Positions 33,956 to 62,639 of a stretch of DNA of 64,000 nt are shown here, one piece after another. This stretch comes from Chlorobiota bacterium (GTDB lineage: Bacteria; Bacteroidota; Ignavibacteria; OLB7). A program made the translations under genes and the position numbers. The stretch covers positions 310,001 to 374,000 of the forward strand of contig JAQBOZ010000027.1 of NCBI GenBank assembly GCA_028287785.1. Reading direction: 5' to 3'. The notes below the pieces were generated by a model. It saw nothing but the letters and a program-made list of their open reading frames with translations. It did no database searches and had not been told where the DNA came from. Every line of letters begins with the position of its first letter. Position 1 is the stretch's first letter.

Positions 33956-34062
33956 ACCCGTTGCCCGGAATGTCCCCCGATCGGCGGTTCGGCCGCGTGA
34001 TCCGCGACGACATCCTCCGGCCGGCATGCGATTCTCTTCTCGATATTTTGCAACGACCGATC

Positions 34063-34929
34063 ATGATTTCCCCCGATACCAATACCACTCTCCGCCTGGC
34101 CTACAGCCCCGATGCCGATGATGCCTTCATGTTCCGCGCCGCGCTGGAAGGGCTGGTGGATACCGAGGGGCTCAGCTTCCAGCCGGTGACATCGGACACG
34201 CAGAACCTGAACGATATGGCGGAGCGTGGGGAGATTGATATCTCCGCGGTCTCCGTCGCCGCCTATCCCCATATCGCCGATCGCTTTGTGATGTTCGCTC
34301 ACGGCGGATCGGTCGGCATGGGCTATGGCCCGGTGATCGTCGCGCGGGGGGCGTTTCCGGTCGATGAGCTGAATGCCAGGCTGATAGCAACTCCCGGAGC
34401 CAGGACCACGGCCCATCTCATCACCCGGCTGATCGCCCCCGATGCCCGGATGACCACGGTGCCGATCACCCCGTACGAGGCGATCTTCGACGCGATCGAT
34501 GCCTGCGGCGTCGGCGCGGGGATTATCATTCATGAAGGGCGGCTTACCTACGAGCGCCACGGGCTTGTGAAGATCGTCGATCTGGGGGAGTGGTGGTGGG
34601 AGCAGACCGGCCTGCCGCTGCCGCTCGGTGCCAACGTGATCCGTCGCTCGCTGGGCCCGGAGACGATCGCCCGCGCCAGCCGCGCCATCCAGCGCTCCAT
34701 CCGCTGGGCTCTCGACCATCGCGAGGAGATGATCCGCTTTCTGATCGATCATATCCATCGTCCCGAGGAAGTTGCCACGCCGGAACTGCTCGATAAGTAT
34801 CTGGGGATGTACGCGAACGAGGAGACGTACAGCTATTCCCCCGCATCGCTTCAGGCGGTTCAGCGGATATTCGATCTCGGCTTCGAACGCGGCCTGCTGC
34901 CGGTGAAGACCGTCGCGGAGTTCGTATGA
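34063..34929 (+). CDS. mqnD: 1,4-dihydroxy-6-naphthoate synthase (futalosine pathway)
   Basis: Converts cyclic de-hypoxanthine futalosine to 1,4-dihydroxy-6-naphthoate in futalosine-type menaquinone synthesis. 288 residues from MISPDTNTTLRL; the frame is open 34 codons further upstream but that part is not family-like. Characteristic stretches are LAYSPDADDAFMFRAAL, TSDTQNLNDMAERGEIDISA and LPLPLGANVIRRSLG. It has the periplasmic-binding-protein-like fold known from MqnD and is followed after 7 nt by mqnB. mqnA, mqnC and mqnE are not in the window. Confidence 0.93.
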   Translation: MISPDTNTTLRLAYSPDADDAFMFRAALEGLVDTEGLSFQPVTSDTQNLNDMAERGEIDISAVSVAAYPHIADRFVMFAHGGSVGMGYGPVIVARGAFPVDELNARLIATPGARTTAHLITRLIAPDARMTTVPITPYEAIFDAIDACGVGAGIIIHEGRLTYERHGLVKIVDLGEWWWEQTGLPLPLGANVIRRSLGPETIARASRAIQRSIRWALDHREEMIRFLIDHIHRPEEVATPELLDKYLGMYANEETYSYSPASLQAVQRIFDLGFERGLLPVKTVAEFV

Positions 34930-34936
34930 CCGGCGC

Positions 34937-35575
34937 ATGGAGGAACCGATGATGGGGCCGGAGGGGAGGCTCTATCTCTTCTCGTCGGAGCTGGAGCGGT
35001 CGGCGGCGTTTCCGGACGGGCCGCCGGAGGGGATAGCCACGGCGATCACCGGCGTCGGGTTGATCGATGCCGCCGCCGGTACTGCTCGCGCCATCGACAG
35101 GAAAGGGGCATCGGAAATCGTCTTCCTGGGCACGTGCGGCGCGCACCGGGCCTCCGGCCTTGAAATCGGCGATATCGTGCTGGCATCCGATGTGTCGCTC
35201 GGCTCCGGCGATGTCGCCTCCGGTGAGATGCGCGTCCCCTCGCTGATGCCCTCGTCCATTCCCGCGGACGGACGGCTGACAAACCTGATCGCCGAGGGGT
35301 TTGCGGGACGCGGGATCGGGACGCGACGCGGGAGGATATCCTGCACGCTCGGCATCACCGAGACCGACCGGCTGGCCGATGTTCTCTACGGGTTCGACCG
35401 GAGCGATGCCGAAAACATGGAGGCGTTTGCCGTGCTCCGCGCCGCGGCCGATATCCCGGTCGCCGTTGCGCTCGGCGTCACGAACATCGTTGGAGCGGGG
35501 GGGGGGAAGGGCTGGCTGGCGAACTTCCGCGCGATGATGCGGCGGGTCGCGGAGATCATCGATCCCGGAGAATAA
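34937..35575 (+). CDS. mqnB: Futalosine hydrolase
   Basis: A nucleosidase-family enzyme that splits hypoxanthine from futalosine in the alternative menaquinone pathway. 212 residues; a start at 34949 (MMGPEGRLYLF) is also possible. Visible are GVGLIDAAAGTARAI, FLGTCGAHRASGLEIGDIVL, the purine-nucleosidase-like motif NMEAFAVLRAA (Glu ligand of the ribose, around residue 162) and IVGAGGGKGWLANFRAMM. It follows mqnD at 7 nt. The call is supported by sequence and by the neighbour. Confidence 0.9.
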   Translation: MEEPMMGPEGRLYLFSSELERSAAFPDGPPEGIATAITGVGLIDAAAGTARAIDRKGASEIVFLGTCGAHRASGLEIGDIVLASDVSLGSGDVASGEMRVPSLMPSSIPADGRLTNLIAEGFAGRGIGTRRGRISCTLGITETDRLADVLYGFDRSDAENMEAFAVLRAAADIPVAVALGVTNIVGAGGGKGWLANFRAMMRRVAEIIDPGE

Positions 35576-35693: not shown

Positions 35694-37019
35694 ATGATAG
35701 AAACAGAGTCCATTATCGCCGAGCTTGAACGGATGTTCAGGATGGCCCCCGATCTCCCCAAAGAGGCGATCATCAAGCAGGATATTCTCCGGCAGGGGCT
35801 GGCATTTTCGCAGGCCGCGTTGCAGGTGGCATCGGGATACAAGCCGAAGGATTATTTCATCTTCTCGTTCGACCTGGTTCCGCTGAAGGAGATGGAGACC
35901 TTCGAGGCGTATCGTTCACCGGAGGAGATCAAGATGACCGGCGGCGTCTACGAGCTTCGCCCCACCATCGTCTCGGTCCGCGTCAACCCGGCATCGCCGT
36001 ATCGCGTGGAGCTGCGCGATGGGTTGATCTCGCTCGTGTGCGAGGATGTGCTGCTGGCGCGTCTGGAGTTCCCGCCGATCCCTGAATATTACAGCCACAA
36101 GCTCTCCAGCGGGAAGAAAATATCGGAAATAGCCCCGGCCATCGAGTGGGGATATCTCGTCTATCTCACGGTCTACCGGCTCTGCCAGTACTGGGGGAAG
36201 ACGGAGGAGTGCCGCTTCTGCGATCTCAACGAGAACTATCGCCAGCAGCGGGAGGAGGGGCGCGAGTACACGGCGGTGAAGGGGATCGATGATATCGTGG
36301 AGGCGATGACCCTCATCAACCAGTACGATACCGTATCGAAAGCCTACACCGTCACCGGCGGCTCGATCACCACCTCGCTGCAGGGGATGAAGGAGGGGGA
36401 ATGGTACGCCCGTTATGCCGACGCGATCGAGAGCCGTTTTGCCGGACGATGGATTCCAAAGGCGGTGGTGCAGGCGCTTCCGAAGGATGAGGTGAAGATG
36501 CTCCACGATGCCGGCTACAGGATCTATCACCCGAACTACGAGGTGTGGGATCGTGAGCTGTTCAACTGGATCTGCCCCGGCAAGGAGCGCTATGTGGGGC
36601 GCGATGAGTGGATGAAGCGGATCGTGGACGCGGCGGAGATCTTCGGGCCGGAACGGGTGATCCCGAACTTCGTCGGCGGCGTCGAGATGGCCCGCCCGCA
36701 CGGCTTCACCGATGTCGATCGCGCCGTTGCCTCCACTACCGAGGGGCTCGACTATTTCATGAGCAAGGGGATCATCCCCCGCTTTACCGCCTGGTGCCCG
36801 GAGCCCACGTCGGATCTGGGACGGCAGGAGGGGCCGCCGCTCGAATATTTCGTGAAGCTCCTGCTGGCGTGGCGGAACACGTTCGAGCACTACAACCTGT
36901 CGGCGCCTCCCGGCTACGGGCGGCCCGGCGTGGGAAGCGCGGAGTTCTCCGTGAGCGCCTTTATGGATGTGATCCGCGTGGAGAAGCTGCCAAAGGGAAG
37001 GGAGATCGCCACGGTCTAG
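35694..37019 (+). CDS. Radical-SAM-like protein of unknown function (CX8CX2C)
   Basis: A 441-residue protein with a Cys triad that looks like the iron-sulphur site of a radical SAM enzyme, but with spacing C-X8-C-X2-C (YRLCQYWGKTEECRFCDLN, around residues 163-181) instead of CX3CX2C. Barrel-like segments follow with TVTGGSITTSLQ (a GGE-like turn), RWIPKAVVQALPKDEV, YHPNYEVWD and VIPNFVGGVEM. Further Cys occur in NWICPGKE and TAWCPEPT. The first 150 residues are unassigned. It lies between mqnB (118 nt upstream) and aroA (75 nt downstream) in one same-strand run, which links it by context to menaquinone or chorismate metabolism. It is not MqnC or MqnE, which have a CX3CX2C motif. Function unknown. 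Confidence 0.75.
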   Translation: MIETESIIAELERMFRMAPDLPKEAIIKQDILRQGLAFSQAALQVASGYKPKDYFIFSFDLVPLKEMETFEAYRSPEEIKMTGGVYELRPTIVSVRVNPASPYRVELRDGLISLVCEDVLLARLEFPPIPEYYSHKLSSGKKISEIAPAIEWGYLVYLTVYRLCQYWGKTEECRFCDLNENYRQQREEGREYTAVKGIDDIVEAMTLINQYDTVSKAYTVTGGSITTSLQGMKEGEWYARYADAIESRFAGRWIPKAVVQALPKDEVKMLHDAGYRIYHPNYEVWDRELFNWICPGKERYVGRDEWMKRIVDAAEIFGPERVIPNFVGGVEMARPHGFTDVDRAVASTTEGLDYFMSKGIIPRFTAWCPEPTSDLGRQEGPPLEYFVKLLLAWRNTFEHYNLSAPPGYGRPGVGSAEFSVSAFMDVIRVEKLPKGREIATV

Positions 37020-37094
37020 GCGTGTCCATCGCACATGAGATTTTCCGGCGGAGGCGATCCTCTCCCTCCGCCGGGTTCCACCGATCGCAATCCG

Positions 37095-38420
37095 ATGATC
37101 GTTCAACCAGCCTCCGGGCCGCTCGCCGGCTCCATCCGCACCTCACCCGACAAGTCGATCACGCATCGCCTTCTCTTCTTCGCCGCCATGAATCGCGGCC
37201 GGACCATCATCGGCAATCCCTCGCTCGCCGCCGACTGCGCCTCCACGCTGGGGCTGCTGCGCTCGGCGGGGTACGGGTTTCAGTCGGAGCCGGGAAGAAT
37301 CATCTGCGATGGCTCACCCTCCCCGCGGGATGCGTGGAGCGGCCGTTTCGATTGCGGCAACTCCGGCACCACCGCCCGGCTCGCGGCAGGCTTTCTGACC
37401 GGCGAGCGTGGGCGGTTCCTGCTGGATGGTGATGAATCGCTCCGCCGCCGACCGATGGAGCGTGTCGCCGGTCCATTGCGTCTCATGGGGGCGGAGATCG
37501 CCACGGCCGGCGGATCGCTCCCGCTCACGATCGATGCCGCTCCGCCGCTCGCCGGCCCGCTGCCGGGAACGATGCTCGACGTTTCCTCCGCGCAGGTGCA
37601 TGCCGCGCTGGTCATCGCCGCCATCCGCTCCGCGCTTCCAGTCGCCATCCGTCGCGTGGCCCCGATGCGCGATCACACGTTGAGAATCGCCCGTCTGTTC
37701 GGGCTGGAGATCGGCACGGAGGAGGTGGCCGGTTGCGCCGTCGATACGCTGGAATCGTTCGAGATGCGACGTGATATCGACTTCACCATCCCCGGCGATC
37801 TCTCCTCCGCCGCGTTCATCATCGCCGCCGCCATGCTCGTCCCCGGCTCGCGCGTCCGGATCGAACGGGTGGGGTTGAATCCAACCCGCATCGCGCTCCT
37901 GGGTTGTCTGCAGGAGATGGGGGGAAATCTGAGCTGGACGGTCGATGACGCGGCGCGCGAGCCGGTCGGGTCGATCGACGTGTCGTACTCTCCCGGCCTT
38001 GCCGGGATTGCGCTCGGCGGAGATGATGCCTCCGTCGATATCCCCGGGATGATCGATGAGCTTCCGCTCCTTGCCCTGATTGGGTCGCAGGCCGAAGGGA
38101 TCACCACGGTCCGCGGCGCGGCGGAGCTGCGGCTGAAGGAGTCGGACAGGATCAGCGCCACCGCCGCGATGCTGCGCGGGCTCGGCATCAGGATCGATGA
38201 GCTGGCCGATGGCTTTTCAGTCGCCGGACCGCAGCGTGTTGCCGGGGGCGTCGCCGATCATCACGGCGATCATCGGCTCTGCATGACCGCGGCGGTTGCG
38301 GCGCTTGTCGCCGACGGGCCGGTGACCATTCCATCGCCGGGAGTCGCCGCGGTTTCCTATCCCGGATTCTGGGACGATCTCCGCGCCATCGGCGCACCGG
38401 CCGGTGAGGAAACCGCATGA
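37095..38420 (+). CDS. aroA: 3-phosphoshikimate 1-carboxyvinyltransferase (EPSP synthase)
   Basis: Sixth step of the shikimate pathway: transfers enolpyruvyl from PEP to shikimate 3-phosphate. 441 residues from MIVQPASGPLAG (37095); the longer frame from 37035 is a GC-rich extension. Active-site stretches are TSPDKSITHRLLFFAAM, FDCGNSGTTARLAAGFLTG, RRRPMERVAGPLRLMGA, RLKESDRISATAAMLRGLG and DHHGDHRLCMTAAVAAL. It heads the aro block and its stop overlaps the aroE start (ATGA). Confidence 0.95.
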   Translation: MIVQPASGPLAGSIRTSPDKSITHRLLFFAAMNRGRTIIGNPSLAADCASTLGLLRSAGYGFQSEPGRIICDGSPSPRDAWSGRFDCGNSGTTARLAAGFLTGERGRFLLDGDESLRRRPMERVAGPLRLMGAEIATAGGSLPLTIDAAPPLAGPLPGTMLDVSSAQVHAALVIAAIRSALPVAIRRVAPMRDHTLRIARLFGLEIGTEEVAGCAVDTLESFEMRRDIDFTIPGDLSSAAFIIAAAMLVPGSRVRIERVGLNPTRIALLGCLQEMGGNLSWTVDDAAREPVGSIDVSYSPGLAGIALGGDDASVDIPGMIDELPLLALIGSQAEGITTVRGAAELRLKESDRISATAAMLRGLGIRIDELADGFSVAGPQRVAGGVADHHGDHRLCMTAAVAALVADGPVTIPSPGVAAVSYPGFWDDLRAIGAPAGEETA

Positions 38421-39277
38421 GCCATGAACCGGCCCGCGACCCGATGCCGTCGCGGTTTGCCCCCGATCCGGATATGCGCGAACGGGTGGTGCTTATCGGA
38501 AGGAACATCGCCCATTCCCGATCTCCCCGCCTTCACAATCATCTCTTCGAACTGTACGGAATCCCTCTCCGCTACGAGCTGATGCCGCTGGAACGCGACG
38601 AGGTCGTGGCGGCCATCGTCGCGATGAAGCGTGGCGGATTTCGCGGCGCCAACGTCACATCTCCCCACAAGGAGACCGTGATGCCGGCGCTGGACGATCT
38701 GACCGATCAGGCCCGGCGAATCGGCGCGGTGAACACCATCGTGTTCGATGACGGCCGCGCAACCGGGCACAATACCGACCGCGACGGTTTTGCCCGCTCG
38801 CTTGCCGGCGAGCCGCTTGTCGATGCTCCATGTTCGGCGAACATCCTCGGCACCGGCGGCGCGGCAATGGCGGCAACCGATGCGCTGCTCGGGTTGTCCA
38901 CCATTTCCCGGCTTACGCTCTATTCGCGATCGGAAGCGCATGCCGTGGAGATCGCCTCCGGCTGGCATGACGATCGCCTGACCGGCATGCCGCTTGACGC
39001 CTATCGTCCCGCCGACCTTGTCGTTCACGCAACGCCGGTCGGGCTGGCGGGTTCCGGCGGGGCGCTGCTGACGGAGGAGCAGCTCCGCGGAACCGGATTG
39101 CTCTATGAGATGATATATTCGCCGGCGGAAACGGAGCTGATGCGGCGCGCGCGCGCGGTTGGGACGCGATGCGTCGGCGGCCGGCGGATGTTCGTCTTCC
39201 AGGCAATGCGAGCGTTCGAGATATGGACCGGCATGATGCCGAAGGAGTCCGATATCCCGGCCGATCTCTTCGCATGA
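38417..39277 (+). CDS. aroE: Shikimate dehydrogenase
   Basis: Reduces 3-dehydroshikimate to shikimate with NADPH. 286 residues; about 20 N-terminal residues precede the family start, so a later start near MRERVVLIG is possible. Motifs: IGRNIAHSRSPRLHN (substrate binding), GANVTSPHKETVMPAL (catalytic Lys), AVNTIVFDDGRATGHNTDRDGF (catalytic Asp), and NILGTGGAAMA (NADPH loop). The ATG overlaps the aroA stop by 4 nt, so translation is probably coupled. Confidence 0.93.
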   Translation: MSHEPARDPMPSRFAPDPDMRERVVLIGRNIAHSRSPRLHNHLFELYGIPLRYELMPLERDEVVAAIVAMKRGGFRGANVTSPHKETVMPALDDLTDQARRIGAVNTIVFDDGRATGHNTDRDGFARSLAGEPLVDAPCSANILGTGGAAMAATDALLGLSTISRLTLYSRSEAHAVEIASGWHDDRLTGMPLDAYRPADLVVHATPVGLAGSGGALLTEEQLRGTGLLYEMIYSPAETELMRRARAVGTRCVGGRRMFVFQAMRAFEIWTGMMPKESDIPADLFA

Positions 39278-39310
39278 ATTCAGCTCACTGTTCAACTCCA
39301 TGAACGATCG

Positions 39311-40963
39311 ATGATCATCTGGCTGCAGGGCCCCTCGGGGGCGGGAAAGACGACAGTGGGGCGCGAGCTTGCGCGGCTGCGCCGGTGGCGCTTCATCGAT
39401 ATCGATGAGGCGATCGAACTGCGCGACGGGCGGACGATATCAGCGATATTCGCCGGCGATGGCGAGGGGCATTTTCGCGCGCTGGAGCGGGAGATGATTC
39501 TATCCGTTTCCGCGGAACCCGCCGATGCGGTGATCGCGCCTGGCGCCGGAGCGCTGCACGACCCTCGCGTCCGCCGGGCCATCATGGCAAGCGGTATCCG
39601 TGTCTTTATCGATCCTGAGCCGGAGGAGGCGCTGCGGCGGCTTGCTGGGGATGCTTCACGACCGATGCTGGCGCATGGCGATCGCGCCGCGTCGTGGAAA
39701 TCGCTTCGTGCCGATCGCCTTCCCCTCTATCGCGATGCCGATATCATCATCTCCGGTCATGGCGATGCCGCCACCGTCGCGACGGAGATCGATCGTCGGG
39801 TTGAGCTTCTTGAACGCCCCGAGTGGTCCTTCAGCTCAGTGCTGAGTGGTGAGGTTTCGACCGTCTCATGGTTTCATGCTCCCCATATCCTGTTCCGCCA
39901 TCTTCGGAGCCTGGCCGGGGGATGCCGGCTCTGCGTTATCGGCGACTGGAATGTGCTGGAGCGATTTGCCGCGTTCGCTCCCGACGGCTCCGGCGATCTT
40001 ATCCTGCCGATCGATCCGGGCGAGGCGAGCAAGTCCCTTGCGACGGTGGAAGGACTGGCGGCGCGCATGGCCGAACATGGCTGCACGCGCGACGCGATCA
40101 TCGTCGGGATCGGCGGCGGCGTGGTTACTGATCTTGCAGGCTTTCTCGGCTCCATCTACATGCGCGGCGTCCGGACAATCTGCATCCCCACGACGCTGCT
40201 GGCGCAGGTCGATGCGTCGATCGGCGGGAAGACGGCGGTGAACGCCGCGGGCGTCAGAAATCTGATCGGGACATTCAAACAGCCCTCCGATGTGCTGATG
40301 TGCGGCGCGTTTCTCCGATCGCTTCCGCCGCGAGAGCTTCGCTCCGGCTTCGTCGAGTCGTTGAAGATGGGGATTGCGAACTCCGCTGATCTGGCGCGGG
40401 CCGTGGAGGATGCGATGCCCGCGATCCTGGATGGCGCGCTTCCGGAAAACCTTGTCGATCTGGTCCGCCTCAGCGTTGGGACCAAGCTGGATGTGGTGGA
40501 GAGGGATACGCACGATACATCGCTGCGGCTCTCCCTCAACTTCGGGCATACGTTCGGTCACGCGCTGGAGGCGGTGGCGCCCGGCGTTTACGCTCACGGC
40601 GAGGCCGTGGCATTCGGGCTGGTGGCCGCCGCGCTGATGGCGCTGGAGCTTGGCGTGGCGGGGGATGATCGGTGCCGGTGGATCATCGATCGATCGCTGC
40701 GGCTGACGCATGATCCCGGCATGGAGCAGGACGCGGCGGCGATCATCACGGCGATGGACTCCGACAAGAAACGCGTCGGCGCGGATATCCGCTTCGTCCT
40801 TCCGGCCGGGACCACCGGCGTGGTCATCAGGGAAATCGGCGACAGGGAACTGGTGATGGGGATTGTGCGGCGGGCGTTGGAGCTGGTGCGGGAACATCAC
40901 CGGCGGGGCTTCAGGCCGTTCAGCAACGGCGGCATCACAGGAATATCGATCGGAACATCATGA
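39311..40963 (+). CDS. Shikimate kinase / 3-dehydroquinate synthase fusion
   Basis: A 550-residue bifunctional enzyme. The first 170 residues are shikimate kinase (AroK): Walker A GPSGAGKTTVG (around residues 7-17), FIDIDEAIELRDG and a lid-like RPMLAHGDRAASWK. From about 190 on it is 3-dehydroquinate synthase (AroB): GIGGGVVTDLAGFLGSIYMR, PTTLLAQVDASIGGKTAVN, SLNFGHTFGHALEAVAPG and HGEAVAFGLVAAALM carry the NAD- and metal-binding residues. No stop or frameshift lies between the domains. It works on the second and fifth steps of the shikimate route. It starts 33 nt after aroE and overlaps aroQ by 4 nt. Either domain could be compared with the separate enzymes. Confidence 0.93.
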   Translation: MIIWLQGPSGAGKTTVGRELARLRRWRFIDIDEAIELRDGRTISAIFAGDGEGHFRALEREMILSVSAEPADAVIAPGAGALHDPRVRRAIMASGIRVFIDPEPEEALRRLAGDASRPMLAHGDRAASWKSLRADRLPLYRDADIIISGHGDAATVATEIDRRVELLERPEWSFSSVLSGEVSTVSWFHAPHILFRHLRSLAGGCRLCVIGDWNVLERFAAFAPDGSGDLILPIDPGEASKSLATVEGLAARMAEHGCTRDAIIVGIGGGVVTDLAGFLGSIYMRGVRTICIPTTLLAQVDASIGGKTAVNAAGVRNLIGTFKQPSDVLMCGAFLRSLPPRELRSGFVESLKMGIANSADLARAVEDAMPAILDGALPENLVDLVRLSVGTKLDVVERDTHDTSLRLSLNFGHTFGHALEAVAPGVYAHGEAVAFGLVAAALMALELGVAGDDRCRWIIDRSLRLTHDPGMEQDAAAIITAMDSDKKRVGADIRFVLPAGTTGVVIREIGDRELVMGIVRRALELVREHHRRGFRPFSNGGITGISIGTS

Positions 40964-41394
40964 AGATCATCATCATCAACGGCCCCAACCTCAACCTTCT
41001 GGGGCGTCGCGAGCCCGAGGTTTACGGTCACGACACGCTTGAGGAGATCGAGCGGAAGATACGCATGGAGGTGGAGGAGCCCGGCCTTGTGCTGAGCTTC
41101 TTCCAATCGAACGGCGAGGGGGAGATCATCGACGCCCTCCATGCCGCGCGGTATCAGGATGAGTGCGATGCCGTGGTGATCAACCCCGGCGCCTACACCC
41201 ATTACTCGATCGCCATTCGCGACGCGATCGCATCGATTCAGATCCCGGTGGTGGAGGTGCATCTTTCCAACACGCACGCGCGGGAGGCGTTCCGTCAGGT
41301 CTCCGTGGTTGCCCCGGTCTGTCGCGGGAGGATCGAGGGGCTTGGCTGGCGGGGCTACGTGGCCGCCATCCGCACGCTCGCGGCGATGGGATAG
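40960..41394 (+). CDS. aroQ: 3-dehydroquinate dehydratase, type II
   Basis: Dehydrates 3-dehydroquinate to 3-dehydroshikimate. 144 residues, the usual type II length. Signature: INGPNLNLLGRREPEVYGHD (residues 6-25), QSNGEGEIIDALHAA and VVINPGAYTHYSIAIRDAI (catalytic Asn and His region), then VEVHLSNTHAREAFR. Its ATG overlaps the stop of the AroK-AroB fusion (ATGA). aroC follows after 44 nt. Confidence 0.97.
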   Translation: MKIIIINGPNLNLLGRREPEVYGHDTLEEIERKIRMEVEEPGLVLSFFQSNGEGEIIDALHAARYQDECDAVVINPGAYTHYSIAIRDAIASIQIPVVEVHLSNTHAREAFRQVSVVAPVCRGRIEGLGWRGYVAAIRTLAAMG

Positions 41395-41438
41395 CGCGCG
41401 GTCGGAGCCTTTCCTTCACACTCAGGATTCATTGACTG

Positions 41439-42524
41439 ATGGCGAATACATTCGGCACCCTCTTCCGGCTTACGACATTCGGCGAATCGCATGGCGCGGC
41501 CCTGGGAGCCGTGATCGACGGATGTCCGGCCGGCGTGGAGTTCGATATCGATCTGCTTCGTCGCGATCTGGCGCGTCGCCGGCCGGGGCAGGCGCTTACC
41601 ACGCCGCGCAACGAGGCGGACGAGCCGGAGCTGTTGAGCGGTGTCTTCGAGGGAGTTACCACCGGCGCTCCGATCGCGGTGATCGTGCGGAACACCGACC
41701 AGCGTTCGAAGGATTATTCCGCGCTGCGCGATCTGTTCCGGCCATCGCATGCGGACTTCACCTACGCCGGGAAATATGGCGTGCGTGACCATCGCGGCGG
41801 CGGACGCTCATCGGCGCGGGAGACGCTTGCAAGGGTGATCGGCGGCGCCGTGGCCCGGATGCTGCTTGCACGGGAGACGAGCATCACGATCCGCGCGGCG
41901 GTAACATCGCTGGGCGGCATCCGGTCGCGCACCGTCGATGAGATGGATGCCGATGCGGTTTATCGCTCACCCGTCCGCTGCGATGATCCCGATGCCGAGC
42001 GGAGGATGGCGGCATATCTGGAGGAGCTTCGCGCCGCGGGGGATTCCTCCGGCGGCATCGTCTCCGCGCGGATCGATGGCGTGCCGGCCGGGCTTGGGGA
42101 GCCGATCTACGACAAGCTGAACGCGCGCCTTGCGGCCGGGATGATGTCGATCAACGGCGCGATGGGCTTCGACGTTGGCGCGGGCTTCGGCGTGGCGGAG
42201 AGGCGGGGCTCGGAGAACAACGATCAGTTCATTCCGGCGGCGGCGGGGCCTGGCACGTCGAGCAACAATTCCGGCGGGATTCAGGGGGGGATATCCAACG
42301 GAATGCCGGTGATCTTCCGCGTCGCGTTCAAGCCGCCGTCATCGATTGCGACGGCGCAGCGGCACGGCACGGCGAGCGGGGATGTGGTGGAGCACAGAGT
42401 GGAGGGACGGCACGATCCCTCGATCGTGATCCGCGCGGTGCCGGTTGTGGAGGCGATGGCGCTGATGGTGCTTGCCGATCACTGGCTGCTGGATCGCGCA
42501 TCGCGCGGCGCCGGGCGGAGATGA
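41439..42524 (+). CDS. aroC: Chorismate synthase
   Basis: Last step to chorismate, needing reduced FMN. 361 residues; start at MANTFGTLFRLTTFGESHG, the classic family N-terminus. Other marks: GCPAGVEFDIDLLRRDLARR RPGQ-like region, RPSHADFTYAGKYGVRDHRG and GGGRSSARETLARV, GSENNDQFIPAAA, NNSGGIQGGISNGMPV and RHDPSIVIRAVPVVEAM. It ends the aro block; a strong hairpin follows at 42554-42586. The chorismate made here can feed the mqn pathway encoded upstream as well as aromatic amino acids. Confidence 0.97.
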   Translation: MANTFGTLFRLTTFGESHGAALGAVIDGCPAGVEFDIDLLRRDLARRRPGQALTTPRNEADEPELLSGVFEGVTTGAPIAVIVRNTDQRSKDYSALRDLFRPSHADFTYAGKYGVRDHRGGGRSSARETLARVIGGAVARMLLARETSITIRAAVTSLGGIRSRTVDEMDADAVYRSPVRCDDPDAERRMAAYLEELRAAGDSSGGIVSARIDGVPAGLGEPIYDKLNARLAAGMMSINGAMGFDVGAGFGVAERRGSENNDQFIPAAAGPGTSSNNSGGIQGGISNGMPVIFRVAFKPPSSIATAQRHGTASGDVVEHRVEGRHDPSIVIRAVPVVEAMALMVLADHWLLDRASRGAGRR

Positions 42525-52433: not shown

Positions 52434-55931
<3,498 letters not shown>

Positions 55932-59078: not shown

Positions 59079-62000
59079 CTACTTCAGATAGACCATCGTC
59101 CCGGTCCGCGTGGCGCCGTTATCCAGCACCAACGAATAGCGGTAGACGCCGGAGGGGAGGCCGCTCGGCGTAAACTCCACCACATGCTCGCCCGCGTCGA
59201 ATCGCCCGTTGGCGATGGCCGCCACCAGCTTGCCTGTTGCGTCATAGACCACCACCTTCGCGCCGGTCGCGCCGGGGAGGGTGAAGCTGATCGATGTGGT
59301 TCCGGAGAATGGATTCGGCGAGTTCTGCGCCAGCGTCATTCCCCCCGTCTCCGCCGTCCGTGGCGCATCGGCCTGTGGCGGTGGCGGGATGCTGGCCCGG
59401 CTGTCGCAGCTCACCATCTTGTAGATGTTGCCGCCGAAATCGCTGACCCAGATGTTGCTGTCGCGTGGGTCGAACTCCAGGCCGCGCGCGTTGATCACGC
59501 CGGACTGAACGAACGGCGATGAAAGCGGGATCGTGCATTCCAGGCTCTGATTCTCGATGTTCCGCTTCTCCGCCGTTGTTGCCTGGAGCGCGCCGCCGCT
59601 GAAGTCCGTGATGGCCTGGTAGAAGGTCTTGCCGTCCGGTCCCTCCGTTGCCCCACGCGGTCCGTAGAGGACATGCGGGAGGGTCCGGTCCTTGGTCTCC
59701 ACCGGGTTGGTCATATCATCTGGGTTGTAGAAGTAGAGCTTCTGATCGCGATTACGGTCGGTCACCAGCAACTGCTGACGCGTGCTGTGGGGGCCGCCGA
59801 GCCACGCCACGCCGATCGGATAGGCGCACGGCGATGTCCACTGTCCCACCAGCTTTCCGGCCTTGTCGATCTCGATCATCACGCCCCCCGGATTCGTCTG
59901 TACCGTGTTGTTGAGCTTGTTGATGAAGAAATGCCCCTTCGTGGGGACGTAGGCCAGATCGGTAAAGAGGCTGTCCAGCCCCTTCGGCAGGTCCATTGTT
60001 ATCACCGCGACCGTCTGGAGCGTATTCGGATCGAGCTTCAGCAGGGTCTTGCTCCCCCAGTCGGTGGACCAGAGATATTCGCCATCGAACGCGATTCCGT
60101 AGGGAGTTGCAGTGACGCCGTTGGTGTTCAACAGGCCGCCGATCGCGTAGTTGGTGATGGTGAAGGAGCGACTGGTTGCCACCTGGCCCGCCGTTCCCAT
60201 CGACGTGATGCGGATGCGGGCGTAGCTCACGGCCGTGTCGAAGATGTTCCAGCGGAAGGAGTTGCCGGTCACGTTATCCTTCAGCTTCTGCCAGCGGACG
60301 CCGTTGTCGAGCGAGAACTCGATGATCACCGGGCCGGGGTTGAAGCCGCTCCAGGAGATAAGCTGTCCGGTGCCGGCCATCCAGATCTCTCCACCGGCGG
60401 GGGAGGTGATCGACGGCTGGATCGACGGCTTCTCCAGGGAGATCTCCCACATCGAGCGACCGTGCGAGGCCATCACCAGGGAATTGCTCTTCTTGTGAAC
60501 TTCAAGATCGGCCACCGCCACGCGGGGAAGGCCCTGGTTGTACGTGGCCCACGACTCGCCGCCATCGGTGGTGATGAACATGCCGATATCGGTTCCGGCG
60601 TAGATGATCTTCTCATCATCCGGGTGGATTGCCAGGGCGTTCACCGGGATGTCCGGGAGCCCTGGGCTGATCGATTTCCAGCTTGCGCCGTAGTCGGTGG
60701 TCTTGTAGACATGCGATGTATAGAACCCGGAGACGCCCATGTAGGCGGTCGCCGGATCGGTGTTGGATGTGGCAAGATCGGTGATGGCGCGGTTCGGCAG
60801 GCCGGACGCGCGCGACTGGTTGGTCCAGTTCTCACCGTTGTCGGTTGTCACCTGCAGCTCGCCACGATCGGAGCCGATATAGACCACGCCGGTGTTGGCC
60901 GGGGAGATGCCGATGGCCGAGCCAAGCCCGTTGAAGACCGCCTTATCGGAAACGCGGAACCAGGGATCGCCCCCCGTCAGCGTGGTGTAGATATAGTGCC
61001 GCACATGCCAGAGAATCTCGGGACTCTGAGGATCGATGGCGATCGGTGCCGCCCATGCTGCCGCATCAGTCGGTTTGCCATTGTTGTCTACCGGAATTCC
61101 GTCCATGATCGGTGTGCGGATGCCGTTGTTCAAATCGACCCGTGAGATACTGTTCCCTTCCTGGGTTTCACAGTAAACGAGATTCGGATGTTGAGGATCA
61201 ACCGCGACGTAACCGCCATCACCCTTCAGTAAATCTCCCCAATCACTTGAGCTGTTGGAAACGGTTCCGTTATCCTGCGCGCCGCCATAAGCAACTGAAT
61301 TCTGCGCCTGAGGGTTGATCGCCATTGCATAGAACTGCGTGATCGCGAGGCTGTTGTTGATGCTCTGGAAGGACTGTCCGGCATCCTCACTTATTAACAT
61401 ACCTCCGTCGCAACCAGCATAGATTCGATTCGGGTTCGTTGGGTCAAATGCAATTGCATGTTGATCGGGATGGAGCCCAAGGCCAGGGTTGTATGTGTCA
61501 AGATAGTACCAGTCCGTTCCGCCGGCATTTCCGGCGTTGGTGGTCTTCACAATGCTGACGCCCCCGGCGATCACCGTGTTCGGGTTGGTCGGGCTGACGG
61601 CCAGGGACTGGTTGTACCAGCCCTGATCGTTCATAAAGTTGTTCGGGTCATCGTTGTTGATGTTCGACCAGTTGGCGCCGCTGTTGCTGGAGCGGTAGAT
61701 ACGGGCGTGATAGATCGGCGGCGTGGCATCCTCGCTCTCGCCGGTCAGCGCGTAGAGAATCGTCGGGTTGGTGGGGGAGACCGCAAGCGAGATGCGGCCG
61801 ACCGTGGCGCCGAACGGGGAGATATCCGGGCTGGATGGGTTGAACGTCTTGCCGCCGTCGGTCGAGTGGTAGATCCCCTTGGTCATCGTGCCGATCCATG
61901 CTTCCTTTTCATCCTTCGGGTTGACCACGACATCGGAAGTCGGGAAGCCGAACGCTCTGGTCCAGGTTGCGCCGCCATCCTCGGAGCGGTAGACGCCGCC

Positions 62001-62639
62001 GTTGTTCTTGGTGGCGGCCGCCAGCACCAGATTTCCGTTCTTCGGATGGACGGCGATGCGGGAGAACGCTCCAACGCTCGTCAGGCCGATCGGCGTCCAT
62101 GATCCGCCGCCATCGGTGCTTTTGAAGACCCCCGCGCCGCTGTAGGCATCGGAATTGGAGCTCATCTCACCGGTGCCGGCGTACAGAACGTTCGGGTTGG
62201 TCGGGTTCACCGCTATCGCTCCCATCGCTATCGCGTTTTCGTTGTCCATGATGGCGGTCCAGTTCCCACCGCGATCCGTGGATTTCCAGACGCCGCCATC
62301 GGCCGTTCCGATCCAGACGGTCTTGCCATCGGTCGGGTGGACGGCGATGCTTGTCACGCGACCGCCAACCGCGTACGGGCCGATCGATTTCCATTCGTTC
62401 AGGCTCTGGAAGCCGTCGCCGTCGTGGAATGGCTTCATCTTCGCCTCGCTCTGGAGGAGGGCATTGAGCCTGGCATTCTGCGGGATCTTGCCGAACGGAT
62501 AGGAGCGCATTCCGTAGAAATAGAGCTCCCGCTTCTTCGGCGTCATCGTCGGTTCCGCGGTCTGATAGATCATCTGCGCGGAAGCCGCGACGGGGAAGAT
62601 CAGCATCAGCAGGGTAAGCAGTCGGGCTTGCATGTTCAT
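59079..62639 (-). CDS. Giant sortilin-like beta-propeller protein with T9SS sorting domain (D)
   Basis: A 1186-residue paralogue of protein C. Signal peptide ending AASAQ near residue 22 (start 62639 or MQARLLTLLM at 62633). The N-terminal block QTAEPTMTPKKRELYFYGMR and RSYPFGKIPQNARLNALLQS mirrors C. Asp-box motifs in the propeller: STDRGGNW, STDGGGSW, SEDGGATW, STDGGKTF, SEDAGQSF and TTDGGESW. An Ig-like domain begins near 738 (ITSPAGGEIW), then a second propeller-like part and a Por sorting domain (NSPNPFSGTTSISFTL ... SGVYRYSLV, from about 1105). Nucleotides of roughly 61120-61520 (residues about 373-506) are visibly lower in GC than the rest. The Cys-rich gene lies between C and D. Confidence 0.9.
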   Translation of the reverse strand: MNMQARLLTLLMLIFPVAASAQMIYQTAEPTMTPKKRELYFYGMRSYPFGKIPQNARLNALLQSEAKMKPFHDGDGFQSLNEWKSIGPYAVGGRVTSIAVHPTDGKTVWIGTADGGVWKSTDRGGNWTAIMDNENAIAMGAIAVNPTNPNVLYAGTGEMSSNSDAYSGAGVFKSTDGGGSWTPIGLTSVGAFSRIAVHPKNGNLVLAAATKNNGGVYRSEDGGATWTRAFGFPTSDVVVNPKDEKEAWIGTMTKGIYHSTDGGKTFNPSSPDISPFGATVGRISLAVSPTNPTILYALTGESEDATPPIYHARIYRSSNSGANWSNINNDDPNNFMNDQGWYNQSLAVSPTNPNTVIAGGVSIVKTTNAGNAGGTDWYYLDTYNPGLGLHPDQHAIAFDPTNPNRIYAGCDGGMLISEDAGQSFQSINNSLAITQFYAMAINPQAQNSVAYGGAQDNGTVSNSSSDWGDLLKGDGGYVAVDPQHPNLVYCETQEGNSISRVDLNNGIRTPIMDGIPVDNNGKPTDAAAWAAPIAIDPQSPEILWHVRHYIYTTLTGGDPWFRVSDKAVFNGLGSAIGISPANTGVVYIGSDRGELQVTTDNGENWTNQSRASGLPNRAITDLATSNTDPATAYMGVSGFYTSHVYKTTDYGASWKSISPGLPDIPVNALAIHPDDEKIIYAGTDIGMFITTDGGESWATYNQGLPRVAVADLEVHKKSNSLVMASHGRSMWEISLEKPSIQPSITSPAGGEIWMAGTGQLISWSGFNPGPVIIEFSLDNGVRWQKLKDNVTGNSFRWNIFDTAVSYARIRITSMGTAGQVATSRSFTITNYAIGGLLNTNGVTATPYGIAFDGEYLWSTDWGSKTLLKLDPNTLQTVAVITMDLPKGLDSLFTDLAYVPTKGHFFINKLNNTVQTNPGGVMIEIDKAGKLVGQWTSPCAYPIGVAWLGGPHSTRQQLLVTDRNRDQKLYFYNPDDMTNPVETKDRTLPHVLYGPRGATEGPDGKTFYQAITDFSGGALQATTAEKRNIENQSLECTIPLSSPFVQSGVINARGLEFDPRDSNIWVSDFGGNIYKMVSCDSRASIPPPPQADAPRTAETGGMTLAQNSPNPFSGTTSISFTLPGATGAKVVVYDATGKLVAAIANGRFDAGEHVVEFTPSGLPSGVYRYSLVLDNGATRTGTMVYLK

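Follow-up and report, generated by a model that had tools for sequence, protein, structure and literature searches.

The window analysed here is a stretch of 64,000 nucleotides from contig JAQBOZ010000027.1 (genome G000 hereafter). Its + strand carries a run of genes separated by short gaps, in the order pgsA-like, pgpA-like, mqnD, mqnB-like, a radical SAM gene, aroA, aroE, aroKB, aroQ and aroC. The mqnD, mqnB-like, aroA and aroE genes were assigned with Pfam or NCBIfam profiles, the other genes of the run by eye. The mqnD-like gene (33961..34929) matched PF02621 (VitK2_biosynth) with 211 bits and is followed by a nucleosidase gene of the futalosine hydrolase/MTAN type (34937..35575; PF01048, 61.5 bits). 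The product of this mqnB-like gene scored 55.9 bits against the futalosine hydrolase profile TIGR03664, below the cut-off of 124.7, and a PDB search matched it to MTA/SAH nucleosidases at E 5e-8. Downstream of the radical SAM gene lies aroA (EPSP synthase, 37035..38420; TIGR01356, 315.8 bits), whose true start is likely the in-frame ATG at 37095. The remaining shikimate genes occupy positions 38417..42524: aroE was recognized by NCBIfam, and the aroK-aroB fusion, aroQ and aroC by eye and by synteny in a related genome (G001). In this part of the run, aroK and aroB are apparently fused in a single ORF of 550 amino acids (39311-40963). The position between an mqnB-like gene and aroA was thus found as given in the preliminary description.

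The radical SAM gene itself extends from 35694 to 37019 on the + strand, exactly as first delimited, and codes for 441 amino acids. It contains a cysteine motif, C164-QYWGKTEE-C173-RF-C176 followed by DLN (36183..36221), i.e. a CX8CX2C arrangement instead of the canonical CX3CX2C. This spacing had been noticed beforehand together with its RFC-DLN context, and both were recovered here. All three cysteines, presumed ligands of a [4Fe-4S] cluster, were invariant in the 74 aligned homologues, as were G223, E283, P295, G296, K297, W306 and G329. The first spacer measured X8 in 158 of 179 homologous ORFs, with X6, X7, X9 and X16 also encountered (range X6-X16). The invariance of the triad and the prevalence of X8 indicate that the motif is not due to chance, and a loop free to vary in length between three fixed cysteines is what would be expected of cluster ligands. 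A second signature of the family is formed by C294-P-G-K297 (36573..36584) together with E283 and W306; C294 was kept in 72 of the 74 homologues. Among the six cysteines of the protein, conservation is limited to C164, C173, C176 and C294; since C116 and C368 vary, nothing points to a second (auxiliary) cluster. The GG turn said to follow the cysteines corresponds to G222-G223 within T221-G222-G223-S224 (36354..36365), a presumed SAM-binding element placed after the second barrel strand (modelled strand 217-222).

Conservation of the radical SAM protein is at the level of the housekeeping genes of the region. Between two genomes of the genus, its value was 86%, compared with 84% for an AccC-like protein, 86% for an EF-P-like protein, 75% for mqnD, 55% for the mqnB-like protein and 54% for aroA from the same region.

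An AlphaFold2 model built from the alignment of 74 homologues (mean pLDDT 94.5, pTM 0.93) displayed a radical SAM barrel of the partial (beta/alpha)6 type. The matches listed by Foldseek and VIA-align were radical SAM enzymes, with Z values of 16.8 for LIAS, 16.5 for HydE, 15.9 for PylB, 15.5 for MqnE, about 15 for BioB and 14.9 for NifB; such scores are too close to name a nearest relative. At the sequence level, the alignment profile matched biotin synthase (E 8e-6) and, at E 0.067, aminodeoxyfutalosine synthase. Pfam Radical_SAM was matched individually by 46 of the 74 homologues. The window protein alone reached neither this nor any other Pfam domain at E 1, and found no direct match among PDB sequences when searched singly. 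A class B (cobalamin) radical SAM methyltransferase was also considered and is ruled against by the absence of a B12-binding domain from the window protein (Pfam, E 1) and from the 74 homologues. Judged on its sequence and on the modelled structure, the ORF is real and encodes a radical SAM enzyme. The class put forward in the preliminary description, which had called for a structural prediction, is thereby upheld by the barrel, the invariant cysteine triad, the GG motif and the family score reported below.

The protein belongs to NCBIfam NF045502 ("variant_rSAM"), a domain-type entry to which no function is attached; it scored 185.5 bits over residues 89-390, the curated cut-off being 125 bits. 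It shares with this family the cysteine motif, the GG motif and the CPGK signature, yet its 185 bits contrast with the 330-490 bits of BciD-like or most Chlorobiaceae members. Among 296 genomes of the phylum, members above the cut-off occurred only in the bacterial family of the window and in Chlorobiaceae (f29), and CX8CX2C was common to those examined in both. Chlorobiaceae carry them in tandem, with up to seven matches per genome in our table. Tandem paralogs at three loci of this group (L038, L039 and L041) include several that adjoin nifHDK-like genes, an SDR gene and sulfonate-type transporters. One Chlorobiaceae genome possesses a single copy (L042:9121-10329, 402 amino acids, 331 bits to NF045502) next to a BchF gene (TIGR02020, 200.5 bits) and an ORF that resembles a carotenoid cyclase by eye. 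We take this copy to be bciD since its neighbours match the cruB-bciD-bchF2 arrangement described by Harada 2013 (PMC3613366).

In green sulfur bacteria, BciD equips bacteriochlorophyll e with its C7 formyl group via two hydroxylations, a radical oxidation of methyl to formyl (PMC7242693). The Rhodobacter capsulatus protein rcc02237 was listed among bciD paralogs (24/44%; PMC3613366) and is IsrB of the isethionate reductase system IsrBHDK, required with IsrHDK for isethionate assimilation (PMC11423573). Family NF045502 includes BciD and, by published BLAST, IsrB. The initial observation was sound. The family as such is real but already catalogued, and the CX8CX2C motif is in itself not new; the remark that no assigned function was known is wrong for the family and holds for the clade of the window protein. 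BciD and IsrB were the only two members with a role in the literature that we found; literature searches covering NF045502, the CX8CX2C spacing and menaquinone in Kapabacteria returned nothing useful. A further profile, TIGR04043 (the MSMEG_0568 / Nit1C-cluster radical SAM protein), was matched weakly (30.6 bits, far below its cut-off of 303.7), and the window, unlike the Nit1C system, contains no nitrilase cluster.

In a tree computed by a quick method (support values are SH-aLRT only), the window protein grouped with those of three genomes of its bacterial family (support 99). Next came one protein from a Deltaproteobacteria MAG and two from Streptomyces plasmids (7 rows, support 100), the plasmid proteins being 56-57% identical to the window protein. 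The wider clade of 20 rows (support 97) further comprised the archaeon Metallosphaera javensis, Chloroflexi, Tectomicrobia, Desulfotomaculum and others, a taxonomic spread that suggests horizontal transfer. The surroundings of the two homologues on linear Streptomyces plasmids (L194 and L195) differ, and a search for neighbour genes shared between them found none; viral contigs contained no relative of the window protein. BciD-like rows formed a clade of their own on a long branch, outside of which the window protein was found, and type-a members were likewise separated by long branches. On account of these branches, the chemistry of BciD and type-a members is not transferable with confidence. 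Although BciD and the window protein share the NCBIfam family, CX8CX2C and a similar length, the BciD-like row L023 was only about 20% identical to the latter, no tetrapyrrole or carotenoid genes lie close to the gene, and no bch or carotenoid gene was seen among those of the window. No assay of a member of the window clade was found in the literature. This clade is a strongly conserved, uncharacterised branch within a family of radical SAM proteins whose cluster motif is non-canonical.

Examination of the related genomes of the bacterial family (G000 to G004) revealed a recurrent pairing of the mqnB-like and radical SAM genes. It was present in four of the four related genomes that cover the locus, and at two different genomic places. 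The order was mqnD, mqnB-like, an acyl-CoA synthetase-like ORF, radical SAM and aroA in G001, and UbiA-like, aroF-like, mqnD, mqnB-like, a GxxExxY ORF, radical SAM and aroA in G002. In G004 the pair stands alone, mqnD being on a different contig. Genome G003 displayed neither gene; the flanks of the G004 locus fall there at contig starts (C11:5 and C13:1), and this apparent co-loss was dropped as evidence for the pair since it reflects an assembly gap. A short stretch of G004 (L036:7537-7734) matched about 50 places in G003 and is a dispersed repeat.

Outside this bacterial family, the surroundings were of another kind. Thirteen near-clade loci (L097-L106, L109, L194 and L195, from Streptomyces plasmids, Metallosphaera, Deltaproteobacteria, Chloroflexi and others) and the fragment L164 were searched with the mqnD, mqnB, aroA, aroE, aroKB, aroQ and aroC proteins of the window, and no mqn or aro match was obtained, some of these loci being short (L097 ends 99 bases past the gene). 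Their neighbours were varied: HyuA in L099, L105 and L109, AMP-binding ligases in L106 and L109, UbiD in L099, a CoA transferase in L105, and B12-binding and MtmB-type genes in L102. No nucleosidase was found beside homologues outside the bacterial family. The quinone link is therefore local to one bacterial family. The neighbourhood comparison suggested in the preliminary description consequently gave a divided answer: the mqnB partner held in all four covered genomes within the family, and an mqn or aro association was observed in 0 of the 13 near loci beyond it, an outcome that the preliminary description had itself named as refuting its proposal.

We propose that the window protein is an NF045502 (BciD/IsrB-type) enzyme that directs a 5'-deoxyadenosyl radical at a small molecule; our confidence is good as regards the class of enzyme, its family and the general type of radical chemistry. 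C164, C173 and C176 would hold one [4Fe-4S] cluster, whose fourth iron would be chelated by SAM. Cleavage of SAM would then yield the 5'-deoxyadenosyl radical, which would abstract a hydrogen atom from a small molecule, much as a methyl group is attacked by BciD. More speculatively, the adjoining nucleosidase might, in this bacterial family, remove 5'-deoxyadenosine or a related nucleoside product.

As for the substrate, no class is likelier here than a naphthoquinone or aromatic compound belonging to the mqn-aro run, its probability being well under even. The protein might modify menaquinone, or an intermediate from either the futalosine or the shikimate pathway, for example by a BciD-like oxidation of a ring methyl. 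This tentative role is favoured by the operon-like mqnD-mqnB-radical SAM-aroA order in the window, similar in G001 and G002, by the retention of the mqnB-radical SAM pair in G004 despite the displacement of mqnD, and by the housekeeping-level conservation of the protein. Against it stand the 13 near loci, where HyuA, AMP-binding ligases, UbiD, CoA transferase and corrinoid methyltransferase-type genes take the place of mqn or aro genes. The quinone or aromatic role advanced in the preliminary description thus keeps its local basis and loses its generality. A broader formulation, which we regard as unlikely, would have the enzyme act together with the mqnB-like protein encoded next to it, modifying menaquinone or else a futalosine/shikimate intermediate by an as yet undescribed reaction that needs no oxygen; this Chlorobiota/Bacteroidota family would have recruited the enzyme from a BciD-type clade subject to wide transfer, whose other members (Streptomyces plasmids, archaea, Chloroflexi) would act on related small molecules. 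The identity of the substrate would reveal the reach of BciD-type chemistry and whether family NF045502 performs anaerobic quinone modification. A rather less probable alternative is an IsrB-like reaction that frees the sulfur of sulfonates or of other organosulfur compounds. IsrB is also a radical SAM protein and a published bciD paralog, is essential for its pathway (isethionate assimilation, PMC11423573), and several sister clades adjoin nifHDK-like genes, SsuABC-type transporters and PNPOx-like genes, surroundings consistent with a function of those clades in sulfur metabolism. However, the window clade is separated from them in the tree, none of these genes lies beside the window gene, and a NifH-like gene or motif was absent from the near loci and from the window genes examined. 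The NifHDK-like partners of IsrB are thus lacking near the window gene, and the kinship of IsrB to bciD is taken from published BLAST.

The constant mqnB-like neighbour (four of four genomes, two genomic places) also brings to mind an MqnE-like pair, in which 5'-deoxyadenosyl would be added to the substrate and adenine removed by the hydrolase. MqnE shares with the window protein the radical SAM barrel type (Z 15.5) and, in this bacterial family, the link to mqn genes. It differs by its canonical CX3CX2C motif and by being encoded separately in the sister genomes; the fold scores hardly separate MqnE from HydE, LIAS and BioB, and such a nucleosidase partner was not seen near other homologues. 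Moreover, the ordinary pathway probably requires the nucleosidase in any case as its (amino)futalosine hydrolase, since the further PF01048 proteins inspected in these genomes (a subset) were PNP-like, except for one MTAN-like protein in G001. The mqnB-like protein may hence be an ordinary pathway hydrolase and merely a neighbour of the radical SAM gene, and we consider the paired reaction improbable. Outright replacement of MqnE or MqnC, one form that the new precursor step of the preliminary description might take, is very improbable indeed. It would account for G000 having no MqnE and no MqnC match, neither being recognized among its 13 canonical radical SAM proteins. Yet the radical SAM gene coexists with an mqnA-mqnE fusion and an mqnC-like gene in G001, G002 and G004, which contradicts such a replacement, and the 10-kb mqn locus of the genus-mate has just a 55-base match in G000 (completeness 95%). 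An assembly gap is likelier than replacement for this missing locus, and replacement was dropped on these two grounds. TIGR03700 and TIGR03699 (MqnE and MqnC) were likewise not among the NCBIfam families of the window protein, and the gene was unmatched in the G000 searches.

Two further observations were made in the course of this work. In four related genomes, mqnA and mqnE occurred in one open frame of 689-738 amino acids (e.g. L091:7167-9164 and L092:4653-6680). Finally, the - strand of the window carries two large ORFs of 1165 and 1186 amino acids (52434-55931 and 59079-62639), whose products display very similar starts (YQTAE..MTP.KRE.YFYG.R.YPFGKIPQ) and are probably paralogs.
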